64,000 bases of DNA, from assembly GCA_032358255.1 (NCBI GenBank), contig JAULBX010027385.1, positions 1-64,000 on the forward strand, read 5' to 3'. This DNA is from Heterotrichella gracilis (taxonomy: Eukaryota > Sar > Xanthophyceae > Tribonematales > Xanthonemataceae). Positions 8,004-48,737 of this stretch are shown piece after piece (position 1 is the stretch's first letter; the number at the start of each line of letters is the position of its first letter). The position numbers and the translations under genes are program-made. The notes beneath the pieces are model-generated. The model was not told the DNA's origin. It worked only from the letters and a program-made list of their open reading frames with translations, and made no database searches.

Positions 8004-11000
8004 ATGAAGCAGGCGTGGCTGACCACCGTGGGGCTTCATAGAGCTTTGTTCGTGTGCATGAGCATCGCTTTGCTCTACAACAAAGCCATGGACCAGCCAA
8101 AGCTGGTAGGTCCACATGGAACAGCTGCCTAGCAGATACGTTGCTGCACCACGGCTGATGGAACAGCTGGTTCCACGCCCAAGCTGCTTACATGTCGAAC
8201 AAACTGCTAGATCTGTCTCTGTTTTGCTTGACCTGATGCACGGCGGGAACTCCCACCATTGCTGCCTTGGGTAGGCAGGTGGAGTATGCATCCCAACCCA
8301 GCCTTACACCCTGCCCCCACACCCTAACCCTGTTACCCTTGTTGCAGGATGATGGCAACACTGATGCGCTGGTGGCCAAGCTCCAGGAGGCTGACTCCAA
8401 CGAAACCCTGTTCAAGGTGTTTGCGCAGCATGCACAGGACACAGTGCCAGGGCTCACGCACGTCAGGTAGGCCTTGCTGCACCTCCCAGCACCCATGATC
8501 ACCTTCCTGTTGCAACCTGTGTCCCCACTAGGCCTGCTTGCTGTTCAAGACCTGTTGTTACAAACCTTGTGGTGGTCCACCCCCTGCAGCATCCTGCTGC
8601 TGCCACACCTCCAGCCCCAACCTCCACTGGAGCCTGCCCCGCCAGCGGGACAGGCCTCTGGCAAAGCCGCAGCACGCAGCGCAGCCAATGGCAAATCAAA
8701 GCCTGCTACTAGCACCGCCACTGGCCCCTCCACCAGCGGTCAGTCCGCCCTCTCCCCACCGTTTGTCCTGTCCTTCGACCGCACAGACGTGCAGAGCTGG
8801 ACGCAGATTGAGCACCTGTTGAGCACAGCCGCGGCTTCTGGGCTGGACTGGAACAATTGCTGCATCTTCAATGTATCTGGGGAGAAGGGGGCGGCGCTGC
8901 AGCAGAAGCCCTTTTGGCCGCTGGTGTGCACAGCGGGGTACTATGCTGCCAAGGTCAAGGGGGAGATTGTATCAACAGGGGATTACGCTGCCAGGTGTGT
9001 GAAGCGGGCTGTTACGCAGACACAAACCCTAAATCCTAATCTGCACTTGCACAGGGTTTTATGTGTGCACAGCTGCATGGCGGCAGCCAGCCCCTCACAT
9101 GCATGTGGAGTGTGAGGCTTGCAGTGGGGAATGGCCTGCATGCGCGCACCACTACTAGCAGTTGTGCAGCGTGTATGTGGGGCAACGCTGCGCTGTGGGG
9201 AACAAGGGTGGCCTTGCCATGCACGTGGGTGTGCCATGCTTGATGCATTGCGTGATGCATCGAGACGCATTGGCGCCCAACAGCGCCATGTGCACTATAC
9301 GGCTTGCTTGAAACGTGTGGCGTGAACAAGTGGCCTGTGCTGCTGCACCGCGCAACCAAGCCCCTGACCACCTTACCCCACGCCCGCGCTTGCTGGGCTG
9401 TGGGAATGCCAGGATCGCTTGCGTGAGGCAATTGAAAGCATGGCACACAGCAGTGCCAGTCGCGCTCTCAAGGGTTCCAATGGGACAGCTGCTTGTTTTG
9501 AGCAAGTGGCACGTGCACCATGCGCCGCACACCCACCCTTGCTGGACCCACCCACCCACCCACTCTCGCATATGCAGGGGCCCACACTTTGTGGACTGGA
9601 AGGCGCTGCACCAGGCAGGCGCCCAGTCCATGGTGTCTTCGCCCATGTATGCGCAGAAGCAGATGGTGGGGGTGCTGAACATGGCGTCAACGGAGCGGGA
9701 CGCGTTCGAAGGGTAGGGGGCCTAAACCCTAAACCCTAAACAGCTGCCTTCAGTGCGTTTCATCATCATGTCGGCTGGCCAGCTACTGCTTGCACGTGGG
9801 TGGCCATTACTGTGCACACCATGAGCCGCCTGTGGCTGTGCATACCGCTCCCGCCCAGGTGGGGCACTGTAAATTCTTGCACGCCGCCTGGCGGGATTGC
9901 CACAGCATTCAGGGTTTGGGTTAAGGGTTCACGGTGCTGTAAGTGTAGGATTCATGGTACGCGGCGCGTGACCGGGGCGCCTGTGCTGTGCAGGCTGGGC
10001 AAGGAGGTGCTGCTGATGTCTGTGGTGATGGCGCCGCACGTGCAGCACCTGGAGTACCGCACCATGCGCGCCAACTTTGAGCAGTTTGTAGGCAAGATCG
10101 TGCCGCACCTGCTGGTGTCGCAGAGCGCGAACGGCGTCCCGCAGCCCGCCGCGGGGGCCCCCACAACCCCGGCAACGGACGGGACCTGCAACCTGGTCAC
10201 TCTGGAGGACACTATCTCACCTGCCACCTCAGCTAGCGCCAGCGCACCCCACTCCATCACCGCCACGTCAGCGCTCGTGGGGGCAAAATCGCTCCCGGAG
10301 CTCCAGCGCCGGCCCGGGCCCCAGCAGCGCGGCGCCGCGGCAAAAAACCCTGCCAAAACCCTAGATAGCCGCGGCTCGGCGCCCTCCCGCACCTCCTCCT
10401 GCGACAGCCTGTGCTCCAACCCCAAGTGCCCCGCCTGCAACAGCGGCAGGGGGGGGGGCGGGGAGGGAGACGCGGGGGCGCGCGTGTCGTGGGCGGCCAA
10501 CGGGTCGAGGCCCTCCAGCTCAATAGGTGTGTGTGTAGGAGGGTGGATGATGGGCCTGAGGTGCAATGCATTGGCGCCACCTGCTGGGCCTGTGGGTTGG
10601 ACCCCCTGTGGCACTGTGATGGCAAACAAACGTTGGAGCTCTACAGCGCCGCCTCCGTCGCACATTCCACAGGCTGCTGCATGTGCATCATTATCAGGCA
10701 GGCACCAACCCCACCCCATCTAGGAGGGTGTTACCTACACATTCCTCCCCGCCCACCGCCGCCCACCGCCGCCCGCAGGCATCAACACCCACAACGCCTT
10801 TGAGCTTGAGCCCTACAGCAGCTACGACAGCGACCTGGACTGGGGCGACTTCATCTTCAACCTCATCTCCATGTGCATCGTGTACGCCTACTTCTCGGAG
10901 GCGGCGGTGGCGGGGGAGAGCCAGCTGGCGGTGTTTATTTCAATGGGGATTGCTGCCATCGACATCGTGCTGCTGGCGCTGCGCTGGCTGTGGTACGAGC

Positions 11001-12407
11001 AGTACATCAGCTACGGGTGAGTGGCGTGGACCAGGGGTAGTCAGGTGGTTGCGTGCATGCGTTGAGCATGGGCCGAGCTGTGTATCGATGGCCAATGAGG
11101 GGTGGGTAGCGGCATGGGTGCATGTGTAGGCAGGGGTGGAATTGTGAGTGGAATGCGCTGGCTGTGCTGCAGCAGTACGTCAGCTACGACTGAGTGGCGG
11201 GACCAGGGGAGATGTTTGGGTGGTCACATGCACGCATGAGGGGGCTATGGAGTGACCACAGGAAGGGATGGGCTAGTCAGTGTCATGATGCATGCAAGAG
11301 AGTGGACGGGGTGCTGGCTTGCATGGGGTGTGCGCTGGCAGTTCAAGGGTGCAGCAACCGGTTGAGAACCCTCTCATCGGTTCAGTTGGGGAGATTGTAT
11401 ACGTATGCTGGTACGGGGTAGAGCATCGGCTTGTGAAAGGAGGTGAACAGGGCAAATATCCTTGCCCAGGGAGGATGGAATTTTAAATGGTACATGCACA
11501 CGCATGGTGTGGGGGACCGGAGGGTATTGGGCAGCAGACGGAACAACACGACCTGCTGCATCATCGATCCAGTGGGGATCATCACCAATCCAGTGGGGAT
11601 TGGTGTTGGTGCAAACACAGCCATTCCGCCAGCCTTTCCGCCACTTGACCACCATCCCCCTGACCCCCATCCTTCCCCTCCTCCCCAGCGGCCTTGTGCT
11701 GTACATCTTCCACATGTACCGCCTCATCGTGCTGCCTGTGGCCAACACCTGGATGAGCTGGAGCCTGCTCAACAAGCTGCACTTCACGCCGGGATACGGG
11801 GTGATCAGCGGGCTGGGGGCGGTGCTGCTGGCCTTCATCATACTGGGCACGCAGGTGGGTGGGGTGGGGAGAGGTGATGCGGGTGTATGTGGGGGCCATG
11901 CGGGGGTTTGAAGGTGGGACGGGGAAGGGCTGTGGTGGATGGGTAGGGTGGGTGGGTGCTTGCAGGGCATGCCTGTAAGGGGCAGGGAGGTGGTGGGCCT
12001 GCAGTGGGTGGCCTGTTGCATCAACACCGGGGGTAAGCGGATGGCATCATCCAGCGCTGCTTGTGTCCAGCACCGCACTGCCTGCACCGCCCCATTTGTC
12101 ACGCAGCCGCATCCACGCACCACTCGCCCCCTCACCCACACACCCGCCCTCCTCCCCGCAGATACGTTTCTTCCTGCACGCCCCCCTGCAGCTTGCGTCG
12201 GTGCTGTTTGCCGCCAGCTCCACCACCGATGTGTGCACGCACGTGTTTGAAACCACCTCGGGCCTGGGCTGCATGGGCCTGGTCAGCCTGCTGCAGCTGT
12301 CGCTGGGCGTGCTGCTGCCCTCGGTGCTCATCTTCTTCCTGGAGATGCGCTCGGGAAAGACATTCCTGCCGCACGTCCAGGCAAAGCAGTGGCTGCTGTA
12401 CCCTTGA
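8004..12407 (+). CDS. GAF-domain multipass membrane protein, 647 aa
   Basis: Eight exons: 8004-8105, 8348-8466, 8590-8994, 9578-9712, 9994-10526, 10779-11016, 11689-11854 and 12162-12407; 1944 nt, all phases consistent. A GAF-like sensor domain spans roughly residues 55-290. Its late core reads SMVSSPMYAQKQMVGVLNMAS, the typical switch to a conserved strand with small residues. Residues about 300-430 are a Ser/Ala/Pro-rich linker with a CSNPKCPAC motif. The C-terminal 200 residues hold about five hydrophobic spans, starting with DFIFNLISMCIVYAYF and ending SLGVLLPSVLIFFLEM. A short hydrophobic stretch at residues 10-25 may be a signal anchor. I infer a membrane-bound ligand or light/redox sensor; no output domain (kinase or cyclase) is visible. 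The first exon rests on a good GTAGGT donor and phase match only. Intron 6 carries a duplicated copy of the exon 6 end. Confidence 0.72.
9721..9741. repeat. Telomere-like repeat (CCTAAAC)3
   Basis: Three uninterrupted units beginning 8 bp after the exon 4 donor of the GAF gene. Confidence 0.9.
10983..11250 (+). repeat. Duplicated exon end and 5' splice site, GAF gene intron 6
   Basis: The segment 10983-11037 covers the end of exon 6, its donor and the first intron bases. It recurs at about 11157-11211, a period of about 174 bp, and similarity continues weakly downstream (GGTGGTTGCGTGCATGCG versus GGTGGTCACATGCACGC). In the copy the donor GGGTGAGT has become GACTGAGT, so the decoy splice site is dead. 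Confidence 0.75.
11568..11606. repeat. Short tandem repeat in an intron
   Basis: ATCCAGTGGGGATCATCACC is followed at once by a near copy, AATCCAGTGGGGATTGGTG. It lies in the same intron 6 of the GAF gene. Confidence 0.6.
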
Positions 12408-13226
12408 GAAGGGTTGTTGGCATGTGGGGCTGGTCTTGTAGCGCCCTCTTCAAAATGGCCGCGCAGGGGGTCTGCTGGAGCTACTCATGGGATTGCATGG
12501 AGACTGATTATTTGCTGGATATTGTGGTGTTGGGGACGCCGGTGACGTTGCAGCCGGTGCACGTGTGCTTGGTACGAACCACGTGCTGTGCAAGTGTTAA
12601 ACTTGCTGTGGTGAGCGGTGTATTGGGTTATGCGCACAAAACCTGTGTTACATATAATTGATCCACGCTTGGTATTACGCTTGCAGTTGTGCTCGAGAAC
12701 GTGTTGATGTGCCTGTGTGCCGTCAGGCTACTTGGATGCTCGACTCAGTCTTTTTACACTTTGGCACGTTCATAGTGCTGGATATCTGTAACAAAAGGTG
12801 TCATGATTGGTAATACTACTTGCAATTTCGTAAGGAATCATACTAGGCCTACGACAATCGCAACAACCATTTTGACAGAGGCACCCTGAGACAGCGTCAC
12901 CATGGTGGCCATGTGGAGTGCACTGTAATGGACCACAGCGCACGGCGGTGGCAGCGGCAGTCGCCAAAACAATTTTAAAAAATCAAAGCGATATGTGGTG
13001 CTGAGCAGGTCCTAGGACTGCATATTTAGGTGATCCCATCAAGCCAGCTCCGTGTACTGCTCTAAGGGCATTCTGCAAACTTCACGCTGAGCTGTATGCC
13101 TGCAGCTGCACTTCCACCTCCCGCCACTGACAGCGTGCAAACATATGGCCGCTGCTTAAACAAGGTGTACTGAGGTTGCACATCGGGTGGGCTGGTCAGT
13201 GCGGTCCAGGAATATGTTCCATCTGT
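12408..13226. other. Intergenic between convergent genes
   Basis: Between the GAF gene stop (12407) and the stop of the minus-strand gene (13227). It should contain both 3' UTRs. TGTAA occurs near 12787. No coding signal was seen. Confidence 0.35.
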
Positions 13227-14189: not shown

Positions 14190-14714
14190 GTTGTTCAGTG
14201 GTCAGCGCTGTATGTGACAGGCCAACTGCACGTGAATGAAAAGTGCTGCAAGGTCTTAGGCGTCAAGTAGGCGGTGCATGTACATGTATGCACCGCCATG
14301 GCAACCGAATGCATGCATATCGCCCTCCTCGTGTTCTGGGCATTTTCCTCACCTGGCAATGCATGCAAAGTGTCAGCCAATGTGGGTCCACACCAAAGGC
14401 AACAACGTGTGGCCTTTAAATCGCAAACACTGCCGGAAGTGCGTCTTGAACCCTGCTAAATTGTGAAGCAAGTGCCAAAGGGGGGTGGCAGTGAACGCTT
14501 GCTCGACTTAATCCAAGGGTCGATCCGGGACACCCCTTCACGATAGCCCTCTCCCTACAGGGTTCTAAACGACTTTAGGGACGCCACCTATCTTTATTAG
14601 CCTTGTGGAACTCGTCCTGTATATTCTTACACTTTCTAAAGTGTCACATGCCTGCATGCGGTGCAGACACTAGTCAGGTCCAACGACGTTTAGCACAGCC
14701 AACGAGCAATAAGC
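14190..14714. other. Divergent promoter region
   Basis: 525 bp between the ATG of the ZNHIT3-like gene (minus) and the ATG of the TPR-J gene (plus). It contains several GCATGCAT palindromes (about 14283-14315, 14358-14368, 14648-14660) but no recognised core promoter. Confidence 0.4.
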
Positions 14715-20700: not shown

Positions 20701-23389
20701 CACTGACGACGTATTCATTGATCAATGCCATGTAGTATCCACCGAGGCTGGGGCACTTGTCTGCATGAGAGCTTTTTACAAACGTCCTTACAATTCCAAA
20801 TTGAACTTCAGTTGTTCTGTGCATCGCCAGATCTGCGTCTGCCAGCCACCTTTATACAGTTTTGTCACATCACTAAAAAACTGTTTTTGTTTTAAAGAAA
20901 GCCATACTTCGTATTTTTACAATAATTGTGGTGTGTACATCCCCCAGGTTCCGCACCTGCCAGCCACCTTGGCCTAGATGTGTTCCAGCAGCTGCTAGTG
21001 GCTGCAGACGAGCGCACGCGCCAGGCAGGGGCCACTGACATGACGGGGTGCGCACGCTTTGCCTGCCGGGAGTGCGGGGTGGCGCACTGCCCGGGGTACA
21101 CCCCCATGAAGGTGCACGTGTCGCGGCGCAGCACATTTGCAATCGAGGTGCGGCATGCATATGTGGTCTACTACCTGGTGGACCCTTGGGGCTGTTTCCC
21201 AGCAAAAACCCTAGAAAGTTGGAAGGGTAGGTGATGTGCTTCTGTCAGGCTTGCAAACTTGCCAATCAGTTTGCAGAATGTAGCAGCTGCATTGTCATGG
21301 AAGATGAGGTCTCTTAGAGGATGGTTCTACATACCCTCCATGTGATCCCCTGGGGGATGGCTGTTGGTGCAATCACACAAAATGGGACTGAAAATTACAT
21401 TTTTGCTTCAGACCAAAACCCACAACTTCTGGCTGTTCATTCACTCACTCTTCTTGTGACCCTTGCCCTCCCCGACCTAGGGTAAAAATCTCTCCCTGGA
21501 CCCCTCCTCCCCCGCTGCTTCCTCCTCCTCCTCCACCCCCTGGCTCAACCCCCTACCCGTGCACAATGAGGGTCTGCAGCAGCTGTGCGACCTGTGCGGA
21601 TGTCACGCAGAGACGCACGAGACAAAGGTGAGCCAAAAGAGGGTTTTTCTTGCTCGATTTAAAATCATTCTTTTGTGCGGCTGCCACGCAGAGGGGCACA
21701 AGGCAAAGGTGAGCTAAATGAGGGTTTACCCAATTTTTTGACCGCATAACCCCACATCCTACCACCAGCCTTTCAGGGTGCCCAGAACAATAGACCAATT
21801 TGTGTCAAATTTTAGTATGATATAATTTATTTCAAATGAGTCACTTTGTATATGTCCACTGTGAAAAACTAGTGACAGCAGTGTCCCATGTTGCACCCGA
21901 TCCATCAAAACGCAATGCCAGGTCCAAAATGCTTGGCGCCACGCATGCAAGGCTGGCTGCTGATCCGACATTACTGCTAGATGCATGTCTTACTCACTGT
22001 ACGCATTCTCTTACCTTGCCATCACTGCCCCTCTACAGGAGGAGAGTGACAGCAGGAGGGCAGTGGAGCTTGATGCGCAGCGCAGGGCCACCAGGCGGAG
22101 GGCTGCGGATGCAGTGCGCAGGCAGCAGGACAGGGACTCGGCCGAAGCATGCAGGTGGGGAACAAGACCAGATCAATTGTACTTATTTACGGTAGCATGA
22201 TGTAATAAACATTGGGGATGTAGGCGAGGATTGAGCAATTGTAGGATGTAGGGTGCTTGCTGGTCACGTCATGTCATGTTTTTGGTCAAGGTGATCAGTA
22301 CAGCACCCTTATCAACCAGCATTTGCTACTGTTATTCCTGAATATTGACATAATTTCATCAGCCTTGTATTTATCATGTACGGTACCCCCCTGCACAGGG
22401 CCCGCGTGGCAACCAATGCGCATGTGCCCCCACCCCTGACCGCCATGTGGCACCAATGGTTGTTTTATCAGCCATATATATCATGTACCCCCTGCACAGG
22501 GCCCGCGTGGCAACCAACGCGCGCGTCATCTCCGAGGCCCGCGCAGCAGGCGAGTGGATACAGACCACGCACGCAGACTCGCTCCACCAGGCTGAGCGGG
22601 GGGGCTGCGCGCGCTGCGCCTCCTGCCCCGCCTTCACCGTGCACTTCATCTCCAGCATGGCCATGAACGCAGACATCATGTTCTACTGTTCCGTGTGCGG
22701 CTGCGATGCGCAGCACCATCCAGTCAAACCGGTGAGACAAATCAAAGTAGGCGCAGTTGTGACTTGGTTTGACCAGCTATATGTAGCCGGTGAGACAATT
22801 TCAGGAATTATTGTTTAGGGTCTAGGGGTTAGGGGTTACACCCAATGGGGTTGGGAACCCAATTCCCAAACCCTACCTAAACCTCCCCTTGTGCATTTGT
22901 GTCCACATTGTGCCATGCTTTCCCTCCAGGATTGGGAGGCCCAGGACAGGCAGCGGCGAGAGGAAGAGAGCAGGCACACTGCACAGGCAGCGGGGCGGGG
23001 GGCTCAGCGCAGGGCACAGGTGGGCCGAGACGGGCATGGGGTCAACAGCGCCTCATGTGTAGGAAAGTGTAAAATTTGCGTTCGCCCATCTGTGCTTGGC
23101 ATGCTGCACCTGTAATGAAAAGGCCCCGCTTTTAATTTATCATAAAACCATTTTCATTAAATTTATGTTTGTAAACTCGTGTCCTGCACAGGCTCATGCT
23201 GAGCTGGCAGCGGAGGCGCAGGCGCTGCACGACCTGGGATTGGCCACAGGGGCGGGGCAGCGCCAGGTGGCGCGTGCGTATCGCAAGCTGGCGCTGCGCT
23301 ACCACCCCGACAAAAACACCTCCCCTGGCGCACGCGACACCTTCATCAAGCTCACGCGTGCCTTTGAGTTGCTGAGCAACAGGCAGTGA
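14715..23389 (+). CDS. TPR and J-domain cochaperone with zinc motifs, 1559 aa
   Basis: Seventeen exons, 4680 nt, every phase closing: 14715-14816, 14945-15001, 15148-15274, 15401-15506, 15781-15912, 16150-16207, 16355-16447, 16709-16840, 17140-19732, 19864-20051, 20372-20480, 20948-21147, 21481-21627, 22039-22154, 22500-22731, 22930-23019, 23192-23389. An N-terminal CSAC (residue 35) and CTRC (67) can form a zinc knuckle. TPR units from about residue 85 to 300 keep carboxylate-clamp positions (EQGNRS, LWSNRSAAY, WAKAWTRKAA), as in Hop-type TPRs that bind Hsp70/Hsp90 tails. An 860-residue low-complexity exon follows, then an acidic stretch and three Cys-rich patches (FACRECGVAHC, LCDLCGC, CARC with CSVCGC). 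The extreme C-terminus is a J-domain core with RKLALRYHPDKN, so the HPD motif that stimulates Hsp70 ATPase is intact. The TPR-then-J order recalls DNAJC7, but the size and cysteine patches are unusual. Confidence 0.85.
20082..20096. repeat. Telomere-like repeat
   Basis: TAGGGTTTAGGGTTA, about 30 bp after the exon 10 donor of the TPR-J gene. Confidence 0.8.
21595..21730 (+). repeat. Tandem copy of an exon end with a live second donor, TPR-J exon 13
   Basis: The end of exon 13 (TGTGCGGATGTCACGCAGAG...AAAG|GTGAGC, donor at 21628) is repeated 81 bp downstream with donor AAAG|GTGAGC at 21709. Reading through from 21628 to 21708 is open and in frame. Use of the second donor would therefore add exactly 27 codons and duplicate the Cys-Gly-Cys-His motif (CGCHAEGHKAK). 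Confidence 0.8.
22372..22530 (+). repeat. Duplicated 3' splice site, TPR-J exon 15
   Basis: CCCTGCACAG|GGCCCGCGTGGCAACCAA occurs twice, with exon-start positions 22399 and 22500, a period of 101 bp. The upstream text TATCATGTAC is shared too. Only the downstream acceptor continues into the long open exon. The copy shifts frame. Confidence 0.8.
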
Positions 23390-28739: not shown

Positions 28740-31700
28740 CTACCCCTCCTCCTCCTCCTTATCCAACTTGATCATGTCGTCGATCCTGAGGATGGTGATG
28801 GCGGCCTCGGTGGCAAATTGGATCATCTTCACCTTGCTGATGGTAGGCTCCAGCACCCCCCGCTCAATGTTATTCGTCACCACACCCTCAACCAGGTCAA
28901 GCCCAAACTCCTTGTAGTGCGCCTTGTCGGGCTTGGTCTGTGCTGTGTAGTGGTACGCGCGCAGCTTGGCAACCAGGTCGGTGGCGTCTGCAAGGGGGAG
29001 TAAAATGGGTGAGGGGAGGGGAAAGTAGAGGGCACCGCACTCAATGGTATGCTGGGACAGGGGCGCTGCTGGGATTGTGGCCCGGGCCACCGCACACTCA
29101 GCCACCATGGCGGATGCATGCGGATGCATGTGCGAAAGCGTTCTAGGTCCACACAGCAGGGACCTTGACAGCGCCTTTGAATAGACTGGGTGGCAAGCCA
29201 TATGGGGCGAACTGCCAATCTAGCTATGTTGCCAGAATGCATGCAACTACCAAACTGACAAATCCCAACGCCGCTGCCCCCACTCACCCTTGGCCGCGTT
29301 AACCGCCAGCGTCTTTGGTATGACCAGCAGCCCGTCTGCAAACTCAGCGATTGCCAGTTGCTCCCTGGACCCCAGCGTGGTGGCAAAGGTCTCAAGGTAG
29401 ATGGACAGGGCAACCTCCACGGCGCCGCCACCTGGCAAAGGGGGAAAGGGGAATTATTGGTGTCGGCACATGTTGAAGGAAGCCCTTGAGAGGATTAGAT
29501 GGTGGGGGGAAATTTGACAGCCTGGACACCAGAGAGTCGCTTGGCCTGGCCTGATTTAGTAGGATCGTGCAAGATCAACACCTAATATTCACCATGCACT
29601 GTACAGCGCTACAGCGCTGCCCCTTCACCCTTCACCTACCACCACATAGCCTGACTCGAGCACCATGCACAGCTACAAACCTTACTGGTTGACTCCAGCA
29701 CCCATTCCCCGCACGGAAAGATGAAGCATTAGCTCTTAACCAACAACAGACCAGGGTATTGCTCTCCCCTCCCCCTCATCTGGCACCACAATGCCTGACT
29801 CCAGTACCCGCTCGACCGCGCAGAACGATATAGGGTTTATGGATTTACCGACCCTACACCAGGGCAATATTTAGCCCACCCTCACCTGGCACCACACCAG
29901 TTGCAAACCCTACACCAGGGTTTCCCAACCCACCCCCCTCCCTCACCTGGCACCACGCTGCCTGACTCCAGCACCCGCTTGACCGCGCAGAAGGAGTCGT
30001 GCATTGACCGATCCATCTCATCCAGCATGTAGTCGTTTGCCCCCCGCAGCAGCACCGTCACCGCCCGGCTGGCCTTGCACCCCTTGATCATGATCATGTC
30101 GTCATCGGCAACGCGCTCCTCAACAACCTGCGGGGGTGGGGTGGGTGGGTGAGGATATGGGTGGCGGAGTGCGGACGCTTTGCGCTTTTAGTGGGGCTGG
30201 AAAGCATGGTCATGTTTTTACAAGTGATGTATATTATGTGTTGGTGTCTGTTGCCATTGAAAGAGTCCAGTCATCTGCAGGCCGCCCGCACCTCCAGGCG
30301 CAACAGTGCCGAAACCCAACAACCCTGCTGCCCCCGCCAATCAGCCAGGCAAGATGCCAGGCACCACCGCTACCTGCTGGGCTCTAGCCCCTGCCCTCCC
30401 AAACCCCCACCGCCACCTGCTGGGTCCTGTCCCCTTCCCGCATCATGCCCATGCACCCCCCCCCCACCTCCCGCCCGCACCCACCTCCTCTGCGTGCCCC
30501 AGGCAGGCTGGGTCAAACACCTCGTTGCCCTCCATGTCAGCCAGGGTGCCAACCACTGTGGCGCCGGTGGCCTTAGCAAGGCGCCTGCACATGGAGGAGA
30601 GGGGGTGAGCCGGGTGCAGCAATTGTGGTGCATGGAAGGGTGGGGTTTAGTGTGGGTCGCATCCTTGGGAGGCGATGGGAGGAACGAGATGCTCATGTGG
30701 GTGTGGTGCTGGAAGCCATGTTCCAAGTGACCACTCGCCACCTCAGACAATTTCCCTCTCCCAGCACAGCTGAAATTGCCCTTGACCATCCCCTTGCATG
30801 CACTCGCCGCCCTCCCGCCCTCACCACGTCACCCGCACCACAGCACCACCTGAGATCATTCTGATACCGTCTGCATGCCCCCCCACCCCACCCACACACC
30901 CCCACCACACACACACATCACCCACCTGAGGTCATCCTTGGGCACCCGCCGGCAGGCGATGGCCCCCGCCTCCACAAAGTACTTAAGCGCCATGTCATCA
31001 ATCCCCTTGGTGGTGAGGATGACGTTTGCGCCCGAGTCCAGAATCTTCTTGATCCGCTCCTTGGTGATGTCGCTCTCGCGGTCGCGGATGCGCTCAAGCT
31101 CCTTGGGGTCGGTCACAAGAACCTGGGGAAATGGGGGGGTCAGATGGTGAGAATGAGGGAGTTAATATGTTTGGGGCACCGGGGACGCCCATGCAGCCCT
31201 GTGGCCATACAGGTTTGCCGTGCCCTACGCCCTCATGTCTACTAGAGCAACGACCAGGGTGTCCCCAAGCACCCTGCTTGTCAGGGTTTACTTTGGGACC
31301 TCATCAGCTGCACCGCACGGCAATGCAATTTCCCCATGGGTTCGGTTGCTTTTCTCCTGCCCGCACCTGCACCCCCATGGCCATGCGCGCCTTCTGCAGA
31401 TTCATGTCCAGGCAGGCGATGCGCGCGGGGAACACGCGCTTGGGCATGCCCTGGGCCGCGCGGCCAAGGTTGAGCGCATACCTGTGGGGGAACACGGCAG
31501 GGCATCAGTAATCAGCAGGTTGCGAATGGCGGATGACGGGCGGCGCCAACGAATGCGGGTTCATGGATTGTGTGTCGATACATGGGTGCAGCTGGTGCGA
31601 TGTGGGTGGTCGTTGATAAGAAAACTTAAGGGTTGATGAGGAGAGAGACGCCCTGCCGCTGCACCGCCTGACAGTAAGAACAACAGGCGGCAGGTGGGCA

Positions 31701-37100: not shown

Positions 37101-40100
37101 GAATACCGCCGGTGATGGGGATTTGTATTCTGGCGTTTTTGGGTAACATCCGTGATGGGGATGGAACAGGGCATTTGCAAACCGATCAGCCATCCCCAAA
37201 CCTCCTTTTTTAACGTAGCCAAGCCAACCGCATTTCCACCGCCATTTTTATCCCCCACCCACCTGTTGGATCCTCCTCCTCCTCTTCCTCCCCCTCTGAC
37301 ACCACTCCATTCTCCGCCCAGCCCCCCACCCCCCACCCCTGCACCTTGATGTGCAGCACCAGCTGCTCCACCACCCCCACAAAGGTGGCGCCTCCATCCA
37401 CGCCACCCCGCACACCACCCCCTTCCCCACCAGCCAGCAGGGCGGCAATGGCGTCTGCCAACCGGGGCTGATCGCTGTACCCAGGGGCATCTGTGGAAGC
37501 ACAAATATAGAATAATTCTTTGACCATAGTTTGGAACATTTAGAGTTCGATACAGACACTGTTCAGGGATGTGGGATCTGAGATTTTCCCTGGATGGTTC
37601 ACTACTATCCGCTGTATGGTCAATTTACTTGTTGCTATTATCAGTGGAGTACGTGGGATGGCATCCTGCAGCCTGTCCGCCTCATATGAAAGATATGCGA
37701 TAGCAACAGCGGCACCCACCTGGTCCACTCCCGGGCACCTGCGGCAGCATGGCCGCCACGCCCCCCACCCTTGGCCCCCGCATCACCCCCTCAGCAGCCG
37801 CCAGCAGCAGCCGCAGCAGCCAGTTGGCACCCAGGGTGTGGGGCCAGGCAGGGGTGGTGGTGAGGAGGGTGGACAGGCTGTCCCACAGGGGCTGGGAGGC
37901 GCCACTGCGGGGTGTAGGGTGTGGGGTCAGGGGAGGGGAGGGAGATGCATGGGGGTGAGAATCGTGGAATCTTGTTCGTGTCATGTAATTGTTCATATAA
38001 CTTAGATCTCCCCCACCTGTCTACCTACCTACTGTGTGCATGTACACTGCCCCCTTGCAATGTAATCAATAGTTATGTTCATGTAGCACTGGTGTGAATG
38101 TAATTATACCTGTCTTCCTCCGCTGTGTGCAAGTACACCGCCCCACTAAAACGTTATGATAAATGTAATCGTCATCGTCATTGCAATCGTATCCGTCTAC
38201 CTCCGCTGTGTGCAGGTAGATCCCCCCCTCCCAAAGTAATCATTGTGATTGTCATTGTTGTTATGATCGCACCTGTCTTCCTCCGCTGTGTGCATGTACA
38301 CCGCCCCCTGTGTGGCAGCAACCGCCTGCTGCAGCGCAGGCGGCACCTCCTGGTCCCCCCACCGCTCCATGGTGCGCCTCAGCTGGTGCAGCACCTGGAG
38401 GGTGACGTCATCGCTCAGGGGAGACTCCTGGGCCTGCGGTGGGCACGACGGGGGTCGAAATCTACTTAGACGCGTTCCAGCAGGGGGTCATAATTTACTT
38501 GATTGCAGACGTTCCCGCTTGGGGTCAGGATAAGGCAGTATACTGGAGAGGACCAAGGTGGGTGTTTCCGGGGTATGGTGAGGGAGACTGCAGTCCTCAT
38601 GTGGTGGATGTTGGGCATGGTTTTGCAGGGGATGAATCGAACATGGGTGTTGCTCTCCTACTAGAGCTTTATTTACAGGAGGGCTAATGATCTCCGATGA
38701 GGTGTGTCACACCCACACACTGCATGGCTGACGTGAACCGCCTTGCGGCGACCCACACATGTACGTAACTCCCGTGCCCTCCCTACCTGCATGGCCGCCA
38801 CCTGACGCCCCATGTGCTCCGCCACCCTGTCGGGCCAATCAGGCGACCCGCTCACCACCGCCAGCTGGATCACATCCGCCAGGTCAGAGCGGGCGGCGGC
38901 GGCGGCAAATGCGCGCATTGCGGCGGGGGGCGGGGGTGCCAGGGCGCTGCGTGAGGCGGAGCTGCCGTTTGCAATAGGCCCCTCGTCATCCTCACTGTCA
39001 GAATGTGCCTGTGGTTTTTGGGGGGGAGGAGGTTATGTAAGGGTTGGTTTGCGGGCAGAGCAGCGGGGGGTATGATTGATTGATGCTGAATTTTGGAACG
39101 GTCACTCTCAATTTACTTTGGGTCTCATTCATGTTCATAATCAGATGCATGCATTCTAGATGGTGAGATAATCCTTGAACACCACCTCCCGACAGCTTAA
39201 GAACCCCAAGTTGGCTCCCACGTGACTGACACTAATCCTATAACCTCCATATTCTCAAAACAAATCCTTGACAGCCACTGCCCAGCACGCTCACATGCAA
39301 GGTAGCAAAACACGAGAAAAAAAGGGGTGTCAACACTCACATGTGCATCCTTGGTTGCCTGCACCTCCATGTAGTCCACCACCACACACAGCAGGCTCCT
39401 CCTGGCCTCAACACTGGCTGCCCCCCTAAAGGCCTCAACCACCTCAACCATGCCCCCATATTGCTCCAATTTGGCGAAATCCAGGGTGGCGGTGCGGGGG
39501 TCGAATGGGCCTGGGCGGGCCTTGATGGGGGGTTGGGGGGAGCGGATGGTGCCGTTGGTGCTGGTGCGGGGGCTGGTACCGGCGCCGAATGTGGGTGGGG
39601 TGTGGGGTGTGTAGAGGAGGGTGGTGGCGCAGCGCAGCAGCTGGCAGTGGACGTGGGAGGACCTGCAACGGGAAGGGGGTGAGTGCAAATGAGGGGTGTG
39701 CGTAACGGGAGGGGAGGGAATGCAGCAGAGGTTCGATCCAGGACCTGCAAGGGTCGTGGATGCATAATGAAATGGTGACGGAATGAAACGCCACCCACCC
39801 ACCCATCTGCAGGATCGTGGGGATAGCATGGAGCACAAACCAGCATCTCACAACACGCACAGAGACAAGTTCTCTGGAGCGGCAACACTGTAGCACGCAT
39901 GATAATGGAGTGCAGGTGTGCGCCCATTACAGTGAGATCGTGCACACACAACTAGCCAATATGTGCACGCATGGCATCGCCGCTGTGCGCTTGCATGTGC
40001 CTTACCAGCCCAGTGCCTTGCTCTGTTGCAGCAGCGCGCGCATGGCCTTGAGCGGCATCCCCTCTGCATACGCGTGCACCACCTCCCCCTGCCACGTCAC

Positions 40101-43100
40101 CAGCTGCAGCAGGCAGGTGAGTGCCCCCCGCCACACAGCGGGGTCATCCTCAGGTTGCTGCAGGCGGGAGGGCATTGTTTAGGGTTTTGCGCAGGGCAGT
40201 TGGTGGGGTCTTGTGCAGGCCATTTGGTAGGGATTTGCGCAGGGTACGACACACGCAGGGCATGCAATTGCGCTTGCAAGAAGACAAATCCAGCAGAATT
40301 TGTTGAGGCACCAACGCTCACCTCAGCGACGGACTGTGGCATGTATTGAGGATATCTATATTTCTTCTATATCTCTAAAAAAAAATTGTTTGACAGAAGG
40401 AATGCATTTGAGTACAAATCCTCGCCTCAGCGATGAAGTGCAGCATATATCCATTTAATATTCATTCGAAAAAAGGAGTGCATTTGAGTATAAAGTCCCA
40501 CCTCAGCGATGAACTGCAGCAGGTGCGCCAGCAATCTCCGCAGCCAGGTCATGAACGCTTCAGTCCCTGGGAACAGCTGCCTGCCGGTGGGTCCCTGGGG
40601 CTGCCAGTGCACCACGTCGCTGGCCATGTGGGGCTGGAGGGGGGGACAGGAGGAGGAACCTGCATCGGAGGGGAGGGGCTGTGTGAGGAGGGGAGGTTGG
40701 CGATGAGATTTGGGCCTCCACATGTGGCCCAACCCTCAACCCTAAGCCCTCAACCTCAGAGTGGTGTGTCCAGAATGGCGCTATGGCACACCTGGCCTCG
40801 TGCGGCTTTGCACCAATGCTACGATGCACAAGATTACATGGAAAATGAAAAATGATAATTTGACACCGAATGCACAATTCCTGACACCTTTCCCAGAAAT
40901 ATGTTAGGATGCAGCACCCATACATGACACGGCGACGAGCTACGTTTAAGTGCAGCACCTACCTCCCAGGGCGGTTCCAGGGAACAGCAAATCCCCATGC
41001 AGCGCCAGGTTATACACAAGGTCAAAGGCGCGCCCCCGCACACGCGCCTCCCCACTTCCCAACGCCCGCCTCAGCAGCAGAAGCGCCAGGGGGAAAGCAG
41101 CGGTGGGCCCCAGGCGCAGCCACATGTCAATCACCATTTTGATGAGCAGCGATGCGCACACCTCGCCCATGCTGCACTCCACGGTGGGGAACTGCTTGGA
41201 GGGGTTGGGTGGGGACCACAACTGGGGGGTGTTCTGCAGGGGAGCAGAGGATGGTTTGGAGTGAGGAGGGGGCGTGGGTGCGTTTGTGTCAAGGGTGAGG
41301 TGGACTTCGTATAAAAAAGGGGTCGTGCATTGATGGGGTGGATGTACAAGGATATATTTAGCTGCAGCAGCCGTCCATGCCCTCCAATGTGGAATTGTTA
41401 AGACGAAGCCTACTCCCTCCCTACCTGCCAAAACGCGTGGCTCCCCCCCTCCGGCCCGCACACCGCCTCCACCACCGCCGCCACCTCCCTGTCGCTCATT
41501 GCCAGCGGCTCCTGCTCAAGGTAGGTGCGGTAGCTGAACAAAACCCGCTTCCTGTTGCATGAGAAAGGGAAGGGTTCGGCGCCGACTTCATACGTACAGT
41601 GACTGGACAGTCCACGCGTCCTGCTGCAGATAGGTTTGGGTGCTGCCACAGGGGTTTAAGCTTCCGCAGCTGGACTATGTATGCTTACAACAATGGTTGG
41701 TGCCAGCTCTAGCATTGCATGTGTCACAATAGAATGCAGGTGCACCACCATGAAGACTGTATCGATGGATCCATACCTGCTCCCCTTTCCTTGCCCATTA
41801 TCATTTCCCCCTTGCCCCTCCCCCCAACTGCTTGCGCCAGCCACTGCTGCCAGCTGCTCCTGAAGCGCCTGGTCAGCATCGAGGGAGGTAGCAGTAATGG
41901 AGCTTCCCGCAAGGTCGTCGCTACCTGTGGTGGATGGAGGTGCTTGCCACATCAGCCCTTGAACTTTTGCTCCTAAATATCAAACCCTTGCATATTGCTA
42001 AAAGCTGAGCATCATACATATTGTAGAGTTATGCCGGGGCCTAAAATGATTATAATCCAGGGCAAGGGTGGAAGGCAATTTTTAACCAGAAAATTGCACA
42101 TGCAAGCACTGGCACCCCTAGTTAAGATGCAGCGTAGGATTTTGCACGCCCCATTGTGGCGGTTGTTTAGGGTTTTGTGCGCACTTGTGGCTCGCAGCGT
42201 GAAGCACAGTTTATCTGGTGGCGGGATGGAGGCGGTGGCTGCTTCACCCCCATCTTCCTCCCCCTCCGCCTCCCCCTCCCCCACCTCCGGCCCCCATCTG
42301 GCTGACAGCATGTCTGCCACCACTGCCCACTCGTGCACAGGCGCGCTCTGCAACGGTGGTACACGCGCTTGAATGAGCAGGCTTTAGAGGCGCAACCCAG
42401 TATATTATTGATGGTGTGGCTGCGCTAGTGATGCACGCTGCTGCACGAGACTGATGCGAAATGGTTGGTGTATGCATGATGCTTGCTGATGCTACGATGG
42501 CTGTGCTGTCTGAATGCACGTATCTAGGTACTGATGATGCACACCTGTGCACGCAGACCAATAGATTCTTCTGATGGTTGTCATGAGTGCCCGCTGACAC
42601 TGGCAGTGGAGAAGCTTAAATGCTGTTATTATTGCAACAATTATCATGAAGAATAATATTTCTGTCTATCGTGTTTTGCATTTTGGGCACGACCTCTCTA
42701 TTGCCAGCGGCCAACCACGCATGGTACGGGAAATGGATGCAGAGCACACCACGCTGGATGCAGGGCTTGCCATGGTGGGTGTGCGCCATACCTGCTCGTC
42801 GGCAGGTGCCCGAGGTGGGCGGGGTGGTGGTGGCACAGGGTGAGGCTCCTCGGTGGGGCTTGGAGTGCCCCATCGCCCCACACCCGCCTTGCCTGCAGGG
42901 GGAGGAAAGGGGCGGTGGTGCTGCGGGAGGGTGACTGGGGAGGGACCCTACCGTAGGGTGTGACAGTGCCAATGGGCAAGCCACACCCCAGTGCACACCC
43001 ATGCAGAGTCATTCAAGCACCACGCCTGAAACACCGACCCTAACGGCCCAGGTGGTGCAGTGATCAGGACACATACTGTAGTTCACATACGCAAGGCCCT

Positions 43101-43229: not shown

Positions 43230-44207
43230 AGGGGCTAGTACACCTCAGCCATGGGGTGTGTGCGGTGTGGGGTGTTGCTCAGAAGCTGCGCCACTGCCAG
43301 GGCTATCCTGGTGGGTTTAAAGGCAGCACGAGTGAGATGCTGCTAGCACTTGAGTGGTTGGATTGTGCGTCTCAGACAGAATAAAAGGGTCTTCCAAGGG
43401 CTGTTGAGGGCTACGTAAAGTCCAGTGCATGCATGACTCAGTGATGGTCCCTCGCAATCAATGGATACCCCAGTACATGCATGCATATAGAAGTTGCTGG
43501 CCAAGTTGGGCTGGCAACTTGGTTGTCCTGCAGACGTTCAAAACATGGAACGGGCAGCTGTCAAGCTGCAAGGTCAACTATGAGGAGAACAGCAGAAACG
43601 TACGCTGTGCATGCAAGACATGGGTGACCTTGTACAGTGGAGACGCCTACCCTCAACGTCCAGAAGTTGAAGACTGGCCTACCTGGGTTCCTACCAATAA
43701 CAGCTTCAAACTGTATCCTTTGCACCAGTCCTGACGCCCAGCTGCAAACCAGTTTCCACGCCCACTTCCTTAGCGCCAAATCGTTATTCAATCTGATCCG
43801 GACTGACGCCTAGCAAGAATTTCACTGCAAAGGCCGAGCAGTAAACGCTGACGGTGGCGAAACTGTACTAAGTTCAGCACTCGTGTGCGCCACCTGCAAG
43901 GATACGTGAATAGAACCAGTCGCCGAGAGTCCTCCCCTTTTCTGGTGACTAGGACTGAGTTTTATTCAAACTTTTCGAAGTGTATATGGTATCACGACAA
44001 GCAAAGCCTTTACGCACTGGTGCCAGCAGCAGCTTGTTCACGGGTATAATGACCACGTCCACGTCTCCAAGACTTGCTGAGACTTGCTATGATCACTTCA
44101 CCCTCAACTTTTGAGATGTGTATGGCATGCAAAAACGCTGCGGAGCATTAGACTGACCACCTGCGCCACCTCGGTCGTGAAAGAACACGCTTCAGTGAAG
44201 TAACAGG
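43230..44207. other. Divergent promoter region, ARM gene and Golgin-84 gene
   Basis: 978 bp between the proposed ARM gene start (minus) and the golgin start (plus). A further 5' exon of the ARM gene could lie here, but I cannot identify one. It contains GCATGCAT near 43424-43433 and 43478-43487. Confidence 0.4.
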
Positions 44208-47200
44208 ATGTCAGGCTGGATCCAGAACCAGCTCAAGGCAGCAGAGGGCTTGTTGGAAGCCGTTGACCGCATCGCGCACCCTGGCGCAGATGGCAAGTGT
44301 TGCACAGTCCAACAGATTATGCGGTTGCACAAGACTTCGGTGCAACGTGGCTGGTTGTCTGACAGCTGTCTTTTCGCTTTTGCAGACGCAGATATGGCTT
44401 TCCAGCCGAGTTTGGACGGGGTGGTCGCGTTTGATGGACCCATCCTTCCAAGGAAACAGGTGGGGACAGAGCCACATGGTGACCCCATGCCACCAGTCCA
44501 ACGAACGCGCAGAAGCTGAAACTGGTCCTAGCCACCGTTAAGCTCACAGTTCACTGTTCTAGCACTGCTATCCCTGCTCAGGGCACAATAATCCATATGC
44601 ATGCATTGTGCCACTGCAGGCCCCCAGCACCAGCCAGTCCTCTTCCCCTAGAAAGGCGGAGGTCCAGCCGGCAGCCAGGCCACGAACCACCTCCCAAAGC
44701 AGCGACGATAGCACCACCAGCAGTTCCACGTCAGCACTAAAGCAGCCAGAAAAAGCTCCCGCTCCACACCTCCCTGCCCCACCTAGTGAACCCAGCACAG
44801 CACCGGATCCCATGCTAGAAGCAGGGCGGCCCTCGTCAGCTAGCAGTGAACCAGCGGCTCCCGCGGTGCCTCGATCAGGTATGCCAACTGGGAGACAGAC
44901 AGTCCTACTAACAAGCAGGGTCCCATACACCCTATTCTATATCCTAGCCATCGCAGAGCACCCTGCACATAAGCTGGCTAGTGCTGGAATGCATGTCAAA
45001 AGGGAGGGGGGGAAATACAAACACGTATCAACTGGCCATGGCAACTTACAGACAACAAGGAGGTTGTGCACTGAACATGAACCCATCACCCTCACCATGG
45101 GTTGATGGTGATGACCATGGGTCACCAACCTGCCAAACCAGCGCTTCATTGGCACCCCCTTGAACACCCCATTCTACAATACATGTAACCTGCATTCCCG
45201 CTCGAAAGCAAGACCAGCCTTGAACACCCCATAAGTTCCCGTTTCACACCCCTGCAGCTGCCGCAGACCGGCGCCTGGTGGGCCAGGTGTCTCGCTTGCG
45301 CCTCGAGCAGGAGCTGAACGAGGCCAGGGAGCTGGCGAGGTCTGCCTCATCTGCCGGTGGTACCACCAGCAGCCGCGAGCAGCGCCTAGTGAAGATGGTG
45401 GAGCGGCTCAAGGCGCGGCTGGAGCAGTACAAGGATGAGAACGCGCAGCTGGAGGAGATGCTGCACCACGCGGACGCGCGCGCCTCGGGTGGGTGGTGTG
45501 GGGGGGGGGAGGTGGGGGAAGAGGGGGGCGTGGGCTGATGAGCGGAAGGGTGCAAGGGCATGGGAGGGCATATTGGCAACGGTGTTTGCGCGGCATGCTG
45601 TTGCGGGCGCATCTGGAGCAGTTTTTGGCTGAGCAGGGATCGATGGGGGGGTAGCTGCAACATATGGACGGGTGGGCGCCTGGAGGGAGGGGTTTTGGTG
45701 GTGTGGCGTGGGAGGGAGAGGGTTTGTTGCTGATTGGGGAGAAAATTTGCATCGAATGACACCACATGGGTCGTGGAAGGGCGATTCAAGGATGGGATTG
45801 CTGCTGCATGGGGCATGGAGGCTGGATTTTTTGGGGATACTCTGCGGTGTTTTGCAAGATCGTGACTGCGGCATATTTTCCCCTTTTGTTGGCATGCCGC
45901 TCCCTTCATGCCAGAGCTCATATGATTCAGGTGGTGCTCCACGCTGACGAAGTTAGTGCTAGAAGGTTTGGGCTGTACAGTCATTGATAGGATAGTGTGT
46001 CATTGCACAGCTCACTGAATAGGGCAGTGCCCCATGCAGGTGGGGCGGGTGACGTTGAGCACCTGGAAGACGAGCTGGCAGTCAGTGAGGTGGCGCGAGT
46101 ATCTGCAGAGGCGGCGCTGGCACAGGCGCTGGCGGGACGGGATGGCGAGGTGGCTCGGGTGCGCCAGGAGGCGTCGGCTGCGGCGGAGCGGGCGGCTGCG
46201 CTGCAAGGGCAGCTGACCGCGCTGCAGGAGAGCCATGAAATGCTGATTGCGGAGCGCAAGGTGGGGTGGTGATGGGGCTGCTGGTTGCTGCACGAAGTCG
46301 GGGGCAGGGGAGCACAAAGGGGCGGGGTTGGCATTTTTGGCGTATTCAGGATATGCGCCTCTGGGCAAGGAGCCACATCAACGTTTACCGCATGCATGCT
46401 CCCACTGCCCTCTAATGCGGCATATTTCCCACTCTAGGTTGCATCAACAATCACCCATCCCCCATATTCCTCATGTGCGCCTCCACCCGCCCCTTTCCCT
46501 CACCCACGTCCGCCTACCCCCCGCAGATGAGCGAGGGCCGAGTGTTCCAAACCCTGCGCGAGGAGCTGCAGCAAATGGAGCGGCGCCTGGACGAGGAGCG
46601 CGCCGCACACGCCGCCACGCGCCGCGCCTTCAGCCAGCGGGAGCAGGAGTTGGAGGCTGCCATGTCTGACAGTGGGGCGGCCCTGTCCGCCATGCAGCGC
46701 ACGGTGGACGAGCGGGTGGCCACGGCCGCGGCGGCGGTGGAGCGGGCGGAGAGGGCTGACGGGGAGGTGGCGGGGCTGAGGGAGCGGGTGGAGCGGCTGG
46801 AGGGGGAGCTGCGCAGGTGGGCGGGTGGGGTGTGGGGTGTGGGTAGCTCGGGGGGTGCAACCTGCTTCTTGTTGGGCATTGGTTTCTTGGCATGGGTTTG
46901 TTCTCGTGTGTTAAATCATGCATTCGGCCCCGCTCTCGTGTGTTAAATCATGCATTCGGCGCCGCTGGGGATATGGGCGTGGCTGTGGGTGGTGGCGGGG
47001 ATTGCAGAGTGCGGCGTGATCTTCATGCATATGGTTCATCATCCAAACATCGTGATCCGCAGCCCAGCAAACCCGGGATTGTGACGCCCCCTTTTTGTCC
47101 CGCCCCGCAGCAAAACCCAGGAGGCGTCCTCATCCACCTCCCAGCAGCAGCAGCACGCTGACCTGGCGGCTGACCTGGCGCGCACCCGCCAGCTGCTGCA

Positions 47201-48737
47201 GCAGACAGAGGCCTCCCGCCAGGCACTGGAGGCAGAGGTGGTTCGGGTGCGAGGGGAGGCGGAGGGGGCAAGGCGCGCCGTGGCGGACGCCGACGACGTC
47301 CCCGAGCTCCACCGAAGGTTGAAGGAGGTGACTGAGCTACTGTACATCAAGCAGACGCAGCTGGAGAGGTGCGCTGGCCACCATCAGAAACCCTAGGCAA
47401 GGGTTCAGGGTTCAGGATTTGCGCCGCAGGCTGAAGGGGGTGACTGAGCTGCTGTACATCAAGCAGACGCAGCTGGAGAGGTGGGTTGGTTGCCATCACA
47501 AACCCTTGGCGAGGGTTTAGGGTTCAGGGTTTGCACCGCTGGCTGAAGTAGGTGACTGAGCTGCTGTGCATAAAGCAGTCGCAGCTGGAGAGGTGGGTTG
47601 GCCGCCATCAACACCCTAGGCGAGGGTTTTGAGTTGAGGGTTTGGTTGCACAGCTGTGTTTGCCACGTGGGTACGTCGTCCCCGTGGTGCTCGGGGATGG
47701 CAGTGGTGTGGGGAAATCGCCACTCGTGTGTGCATTTCCTTGGGTGAACCTGTATTGTTTCTTGGCACGCTGTGCAAAGGCTGCAGTTATTGCATGGCAA
47801 TGCTGCCAGATTGGCCCCGGCGGCTGTAATTGCCAACCGCCCCATGTCGCCCTGCAGGCTTGCTTCTGACAAGGCGGCGCAGCAGATGGCGCTTGAGCGT
47901 GAGATCAGCAGCGTGAGGGAGGAGGCGGAGCGGTCGCGGCGGCGTGCAAACACGGAGCGCGCGCAGGCACCCTCGCTCATGTCTGAGGGGGTCATACCCA
48001 TGGACGCAATAGGGGAGTCGTACTACAGGTGGGGCTGGAAGCTGGCGGTCACAGCATACAATATAAAATATTTATTTCATATCTGAAATTGAAAGGTGTC
48101 TGATCTACTGATTTTGCTTTTCTTTCTTATAACCCTATATATTAGAATTATAAAGTGGATTTCTAAACATAATTATACGCTGACTGACATGGAGCTTTCG
48201 TTGATTGAAGAAGAGGATTAAACAAAGGGGACGATCCTGCAGTAGCTGCATGCATCGATCCATGTGCTGACATGCCTGGTTGGGAGGTTAGTTGGCTGCC
48301 GTGAGTGGCCGCATGATGCGTCTGTGCGGTTATGATTGTTTCACTGTATTTGATGTACCGGGTCCATTCACTGGGTACATGTACTTGTGGCAAGTCCACA
48401 TGCGGTGGGCTTGGCGTGTTGGGGCAACGGCACGGCAGGGTCATTGCTGTATCCTCACACATCCTCACACGATGCCCTCCCCATGCGCAGGCTAGCCAAC
48501 CACAACAGGGTGGGCGTGGCTGTCAAAGCGGGCGCCCAGTTCCTAGACGCCACCGCTGCCCAGGCTGTGCGGCTCATCAAGCTGTACCCCCTGGCTCGCC
48601 TGCTCATGTTCCTGTACGTCATCTTCATCCACCTGTTTGTGTACCTGCTGCTCCACCGCCTGCAGCACCGCGCGCTGCGGGCAGATGTGGCGGGGATGGG
48701 CCACATAGGGTCGCGCATGATCGACGCGGGGGAGTGA
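44208..48737 (+). CDS. Golgin-84-like Golgi tethering protein, 611 aa
   Basis: Golgin-84/golgin candidate 1 family: a tail-anchored coiled-coil tether on Golgi cisternae. Nine exons: 44208-44292, 44386-44459, 44620-44878, 45258-45488, 46040-46260, 46527-46816, 47111-47368, 47858-48028, 48491-48737; 1836 nt, all phases closing. The N-terminus SGWIQNQLKAAEGLLEAVDR matches the family start. It is followed by a Ser/Pro-rich linker, then about 350 residues of heptad coiled coil. The C-terminal signature ELLYIKQTQLE, ANHNRVGVAVKAG and LYPLARLLMFLYVIFIHLFV gives the single transmembrane anchor, with a short lumenal tail. Exon 1 to 2 needs a GC-AG intron (GATG|GCAAGTG), since the only phase-correct site is GC. 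A duplicate of the end of exon 7 at 47430-47480 is a possible extra 51-nt exon, which would give 628 aa. Confidence 0.9.
46905..46957. repeat. 25-bp direct repeat in a golgin intron
   Basis: CTCGTGTGTTAAATCATGCA followed by TTCGG occurs at 46905-46929 and again at 46933-46957, identical in both copies. Confidence 0.85.
47318..47600 (+). repeat. 112-bp tandem array of an exon end, golgin exon 7
   Basis: Three units with ends at 47368 (real exon), 47480 and 47592, exactly 112 bp apart. Copy 2 has its own acceptor (GCGCCGCAG|GCTGAAG, exon start 47430) and donor (GAGAG|GTGGGT). It spans 51 nt, starts and ends in phase 2, and is open. Copy 3 has lost the acceptor (ACCGCTGG) and carries an in-frame TAG. 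Telomere-like AGGGTTTAGGGTTCAGGGTTT lies between copies. Confidence 0.9.

Follow-up and report, generated by a model that had tools for sequence, protein, structure and literature searches.

Why should the end of an exon, together with its 5' splice site (donor), recur inside the following intron in several genes of one locus? The question is raised by a stretch of Heterotrichella gracilis DNA, the first 64 kb of a 218,033-base contig (C487, JAULBX010027385.1) in an assembly of 68.5 Mb and 903 contigs, which is called the window throughout and carries intron-rich eukaryotic genes. We identified six donor-spanning arrays in five of these genes, far above chance by realignment and self-BLAST, which a sequence-only reading of the window had attributed to duplication tied to 5' splice sites. 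We found that the phenomenon is not specific to 5' splice sites; the arrays are probably head-to-tail tandem duplications, mostly of about 60-240 bp, which occur along gene bodies without being aimed at donors and would be formed by fill-in at staggered breaks.

Each array named in the sequence-only reading, in the GAF, TPR-J and CCT1 genes, two introns of the ARM gene and Golgin-84, was recovered by shuffles, self-BLAST and Tandem Repeats Finder, with periods and donors (from intact to mutated) as had been described. For the pairs listed below, apart from golgin and the weaker pair before it, realignment was repeated with 500 dinucleotide-shuffled versions of the copy region, none of which reached the observed score (p <= 0.002). 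The features are as follows, in window coordinates.

10980-11066, plus strand: GAF gene, original exon end, donor and intron start (self-BLAST, shuffles)
11154-11240, plus strand: GAF gene, intron copy, 70/84 identical, GT changed to CT
21593-21646, plus strand: TPR-J gene, original exon end and donor (shuffles)
21674-21727, plus strand: TPR-J gene, intron copy, donor GT intact, 46/54 identical
22354-22421, plus strand: TPR-J gene, acceptor-spanning copy, upstream in the same intron as its original, 56/60 identical
22463-22522, plus strand: TPR-J gene, original intron end, acceptor and exon start (self-BLAST, shuffles)
29914-29995, minus strand: CCT1, original exon end and donor (self-BLAST, shuffles)
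29750-29828, minus strand: CCT1, intron copy, GT changed to AT, 66/79 identical
29621-29664, minus strand: CCT1, second, shorter copy, 34/43 identical
38259-38309, minus strand: ARM gene, original exon end and donor (shuffles)
38186-38229, 38099-38144 and 38014-38055 (span 38014-38229), minus strand: ARM gene, three copies (self-BLAST, shuffles)
40476-40524, minus strand: ARM gene, second intron, original exon end and donor (shuffles)
40400-40445 and 40303-40344 (span 40303-40445), minus strand: ARM gene, second intron, two copies (shuffles)
45412-45525 and 45606-45722, plus strand: weaker donor-spanning pair in the gene model before golgin, shift 194, 65.8% identity, score 34
47310-47421, 47422-47533 and 47534-47644, plus strand: golgin-84, three 112-bp units (Tandem Repeats Finder; self-BLAST E 1.6e-61)

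The acceptor-spanning copy in TPR-J is as clear as the donor arrays, and was absent from the sequence-only reading. A third copy in the GAF gene was rejected as not significant (shuffle p 0.07 and 0.36), and the GAF gene model had no Pfam match at E 0.001; Pfam identified CCT1 (PF00118) and the golgin (PF09787). The CCT1 protein aligns gap-free across the duplicated border to CCT1 of PDB 3iyg, indicating that the exon-side donor yields the normal protein and that the intron copies are extra. In golgin-84, the exon end and donor lie in the first unit, and the end of the unit is telomere-like; exons of this gene are placed at 47111-47368 and 47858-48028.

We compared the window with other parts of the same genome. 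The first sample consisted of 20 stretches picked by coordinate, 184.6 kb in total, from which two (L004 and L005, contigs C100 and C145) were dropped on account of their 35% GC and dense bacterial open reading frames, leaving 18 loci. The proteins of these two contigs look Bacteroidota-like, and their presence shows that the assembly is not pure. Exon/intron borders were called with our own hidden-Markov gene finder, trained on the sample and the window, which gave 295 introns (median 211 bp) across the 18 loci and the window; the 294 of at most 1200 bp were kept, 75 of them in the window. Two gene predictions, CCT1 and isopropylmalate synthase, agree with solved structures. The isopropylmalate synthase prediction contains two short repeated peptides that are insertions relative to the known enzyme, which we take to be intronic exon copies read as exons, so that the scan would under-count copies. 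Four further stretches (40 kb) formed a hold-out sample, read with the gene model fixed beforehand.

The copies have the anatomy of tandem duplications. Direct copies outnumber inverted ones by 46:1 in introns, 39:0 across borders and 17:4 in intergenic DNA, and 70 of 86 non-coding or mixed events are contiguous by an approximate extension test. Direct, head-to-tail, contiguous copies are what is expected of fill-in at staggered breaks. Shifts between copies range from 29 to 471 bp, with 113 of 140 events falling within 60-240 bp, and a nucleosome-like period was rejected given this breadth. A mobile intron element was likewise rejected, as the golgin and CCT1 units, the two tested in a genome-wide search, are each present at their own locus only.

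The best surviving alternative is capture of nearby DNA during repair, of the synthesis-dependent strand annealing type, in which a copy is inserted at a break away from its source and not in tandem. Some of the anatomy would suit it: a spacer of at least 25 bp separates the copies in 16 of the 86 non-coding or mixed events (the spacer being homologous in six of the 16), and unit sizes are compatible with the class reported from vertebrates (up to 619 bp; PMC2671141). Captured copies should, however, lie apart from their source in either orientation, and here, these 16 events notwithstanding, the majority are contiguous and inverted copies are almost lacking, so that we regard capture as unlikely.

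The border anchoring described in the sequence-only reading recurs outside the window. There, at a score of at least 18, the intron following an exon contained a copy of that exon's last 40 bases in 12/168 cases (unrelated pairs 0%), and the intron preceding an exon contained a copy of that exon's first 40 bases in 7/174. Internal exon segments gave only 1/133 and 1/140, and far exon ends 0/148 and 0/153. Exon ends are thus copied far more often than internal segments, in the very comparison proposed as a check on the sequence-only reading, and the anchoring to exon borders is no artefact of that reading. In the first sample, approximately one in ten introns of at least 150 bp contains a further copy of its donor or its acceptor border.

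Its donor specificity, in contrast, did not hold. When 60-base windows centred on the donor, the acceptor or the intron middle were scored (at least 18), copies were found outside the window for 16/127 donors, 13/126 acceptors and 12/105 intron middles (unrelated pairs 0-0.6%). Donors are in excess within the window only (7/47, as against 1/48 acceptors and 1/44 intron middles), which is the sample that prompted the claim. Donor anchoring emerges if donors alone are examined, and the acceptor and intron-middle controls rule out a donor-specific mechanism.

The alternative in its full form, live intron gain by a tandem duplication process that is anchored on 5' splice sites and seeds exons and alternative donors, is therefore very unlikely. 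It could draw on this excess of donors in the window, on the fact that all six arrays first noticed span donors, and on the second golgin-84 copy, part of which (47430-47480) the gene finder predicts to be an exon that is in frame (LKGVTELLYIKQTQLER) and has an acceptor of its own. Against it, acceptors and intron middles are equally affected elsewhere, copied donors decay neutrally (see below), and the copies sit in existing introns. Intron gain predicts copied exon ends that abut an acceptor, whereas, judged by copy position only, 25/28 donor-side copies are internal to their intron. The other 3/28 alignments reach the intron end, and at least the one in L016 looks like a wrong gene model.

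We found no sign that copied splice sites are functionally retained or actively removed. The GT bases are identical in 35/42 positions of 21 donor-spanning copies, compared with 601/736 neighbouring bases, and the AG bases in 24/26 positions of 13 acceptor-spanning copies, compared with 367/452. Identities between original and copy extend from 68% to 97%, with the 97%-identical copy lying in an intron of L014 (2018-2406). As the splice-site bases are kept like their neighbours, no better and no worse, the copies decay without visible selection, which lends no support to the proposed seeding of exons and alternative donors. Retention of the copies for regulated alternative splicing, or as decoy exons, might have been suggested by the intact GT of 14/21 donor copies and intact AG of 11/13 acceptor copies; it is highly improbable, given that these bases are no better conserved than their flanks, and that intron middles, which have no splice sites to keep, show the same copy rate.

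The least probable explanation is that the copies are artefactual, owing to the gene models, to the assembly or to a mixture of organisms. The bacterial contigs, the home-made gene finder and the compositional differences given below might be cited for it, but against it stand the many substitutions between copies, the near-zero scores of unrelated pairs, the similar codon usage and GC content at third codon positions, the telomere repeats of a contig with a copy-free locus, and the support for the borders from homologues of CCT1 and isopropylmalate synthase. Copy density is very uneven, and four loci (L002, L010, L012 and L019) are without any copy-bearing 60-base tile at a score of at least 20, although L019 holds one junction copy. 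Copy-rich and copy-free loci differ in the frequency of A at donor position +3 (16% and 32%, respectively), and on the second axis of a tetramer signature computed with repeats unmasked, which tracks telomere density and has the 2.1-kb L017 as an outlier. However, codon usage and third-position GC are alike in both, and contig C10, the source of copy-free L002, carries telomere 20-mers. Two organisms behind the two sets are thus unlikely, and by their sequence features all these loci likely come from a single organism.

The duplications follow gene bodies. When 60-base tiles were searched for a copy within 450 bases (score at least 20), those with a copy outside the window numbered 79/689 in introns, 54/386 across borders, 47/588 in exons and 15/941 in intergenic DNA; 15 of the 47 exon tiles come from L021, which encodes a repetitive protein. 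In ten copy-rich loci, selected post hoc, 76/450 intron tiles and 14/363 intergenic tiles had a copy (odds ratio 5.1). The hold-out sample repeats the pattern (intron 18/156, border 8/63, exon 3/90, intergenic 3/323), with 24 of the 32 matches contributed by L022, only 10% of which is predicted to be exonic. Shifts are in frame in 20/29 exon-exon events, and in 14/36 intron-intron events, about the chance third.

This distribution is consistent with small units that duplicate head-to-tail along gene bodies and are then filtered. Where a unit lies inside an intron, or straddles either of its borders, the extra copy would be spliced out and would survive, while a unit inside an exon would be tolerated mainly when the frame is kept. 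As splicing removes the intronic and border-straddling extras, exon ends with their donor or acceptor would accumulate as decaying intron copies. A general process of small duplication, combined with selection against harm to proteins, would therefore have no need to recognise the donor.

We additionally identified an association with telomere repeats, as AAACCCTAAACCC-like sequence abounds in the copy-rich introns. Across the 294 introns of the window and first sample, the fourteen TTTAGGG heptamers occur at 13.07/kb in introns, 0.92/kb in exons and 1.97/kb in intergenic DNA, a 6.6-fold excess of introns over intergenic DNA; backward-read control heptamers gave 1.56, 1.01 and 0.58/kb, respectively. 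They are concentrated in a minority of introns, 181/294 having none and 57/294 at least six. TTTAGGG stands at the extreme start of contigs C70 and C140, as expected of a terminal repeat, and the 20-mer AAACCCTAAACCCTAAACCC has 1178 matches in the genome, internal or terminal, compared with 0 for its backward control. The intron heptamers thus qualify as interstitial telomeric sequences, forming internal runs of the telomere repeat that this organism itself uses. The hold-out sample shows the same distribution (introns 7.4-19.4/kb, intergenic DNA 0.3-3.4/kb).

Several further features were noted in passing. Gene-bearing loci fall into two classes, with introns either heptamer-free (L007, L010, L012 and L015; 0/kb) or full (L009, L011, L016, L020 and L021; 22-33/kb). 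The heptamers are strand-biased, with 739 CCCTAAA and 193 TTTAGGG on the sense strand, the latter commonest in the first fifth of introns, a bias that may reflect selection against TTTAG/G decoy acceptors. An ARM-gene intron contains, at 40180-40244, a 24-bp telomere-like minisatellite with TAGGGTTTTG (Tandem Repeats Finder). The most over-represented 7-mers in the intergenic DNA of the window and sample are GCATGCA and ATGCATG. A telomerase RNA-binding domain (PF12009) is encoded in two exons elsewhere in the genome (G000:C626:23723-24513, minus strand).

Telomere repeats and junction copies go together even when telomere-like bases are masked before scoring (junction copies at a score of at least 16). 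In the first sample and window, junction copies are found in 17/47 introns with at least two heptamers and in 8/112 others (p 1.6e-5), and outside the window in 14/37 and 4/77, respectively. With the hold-out sample added, the counts are 17/53 and 9/123 (p 9e-5), or 18/68 and 8/108 (p 8e-4) when a single heptamer suffices. The link is mainly one between loci (Spearman 0.53, p 0.011, 22 loci). The association is correlational.

The anatomy of the copies, their frequency, their neutral decay and this correlation are direct observations. As to their origin, we infer that the units would arise at staggered breaks through fill-in of the 3' overhangs and rejoining, by CST-Pol alpha with end joining, or by Pol theta. 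In mammalian cells, small tandem duplications are reported to form at breaks with 3' overhangs, by CST-guided Pol alpha fill-in and non-homologous end joining, partly with Pol theta, and the same source describes the recruitment of Pol alpha to telomeres by CST (PMC8355091). As CST acts at both telomeres and fill-in breaks, it would tie telomere repeats to the duplications. Interstitial telomere repeats are reported to be inserted at breaks in mammals (PMC2246262) and to promote rearrangements in yeast (PMC11626172), and here they might be break sites or repair scars that favour fill-in duplication. A more specific proposal, tentative and on balance unlikely, is that intron telomere repeats recruit telomerase and CST-Pol alpha to breaks in transcribed genes, where fill-in would serially lengthen introns and scatter spare splice sites, a self-reinforcing process confined to some genes and hardly touching intergenic DNA.

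Several results weigh against fill-in duplication along gene bodies, or against its connection with telomere repeats. In the window alone, introns are not richer in copies than intergenic DNA (7/243 and 19/408 tiles, respectively), partly owing to a dispersed repeat that lies between genes at 1893-2821, and junction copies are not significantly associated with heptamers (3/10 and 4/35 introns). The junction rate was not repeated in the hold-out sample (donor 0/18, acceptor 1/21; about p 0.05 against the first rate), and 40-base exon-end copies were found there in 0/25 and 0/27 cases. Taken with the uneven copy density, this makes the genome-wide habit supposed by the sequence-only reading too strong a description, although copies do recur outside the window. 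The telomere link is weak within loci (p 0.03 for at least two heptamers, 0.13 for at least one), and the enrichment of heptamers at breakpoints is marginal, with 10/45 against 5.3 expected (p 0.02), p values of 0.03-0.11 at other thresholds, and 17/45 against 24% in a looser test. Telomere-rich introns without copies exist in L006, L021, L023 and L025, and heptamers can be multiplied by a duplication itself. Finally, the borders come from our own gene finder, and the repair step itself was not observed.

The window repeat at 1893-2821 consists of two tandem copies in intergenic DNA (shift 471 bp, 90% identity), and is present on at least ten other contigs; it is distinct from the arrays in introns.

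Border-spanning tandem duplication, as described here, provides a countable source of intron growth. It also raises a sharp question, in that certain genes accumulate telomere repeats as well as tandem duplications in their introns, whereas the adjacent intergenic DNA accumulates hardly any of either. Among the matches listed in a search of literature titles and abstracts, none described, for an alga, introns rich in telomere repeats or duplications that span exon/intron borders.

Introners, which are dispersed copies of one element, likewise alter introns across many genes, but the two units tested here do not occur beyond their own loci. Intron gain by tandem duplication (Rogers 1989 and Hellsten 2011, as described in Ma 2016, PMC4974935) similarly duplicates splice-site sequence, with a unit that in Ma 2016 crosses the intron-exon border; there a new intron is made, whereas here existing introns lengthen. 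The interstitial telomeric sequences described at double-strand breaks (Nergadze 2007, PMC2246262) share the short internal telomere repeats, which in the present genome are densest in introns and correlate with tandem duplications. Repair-mediated duplications in vertebrates (Pace 2009, PMC2671141) are likewise local, have a similar size range and can take in exon/intron borders, with 4/824 donors reported as partial exon/intron. They are inserted and can be inverted, unlike the tandem, direct copies seen here, which are also far denser per kb, allowing that detection methods differ. The duplications formed by CST-guided Pol alpha fill-in (Schimmel 2021, PMC8355091) resemble ours in being direct, contiguous, short, sequence-independent and genome-enlarging. 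They were obtained at induced breaks in mammalian cells, whereas those in this genome are old scars only, with units often above 100 bp, and are linked to telomere-like repeats, a link that the paper does not claim.

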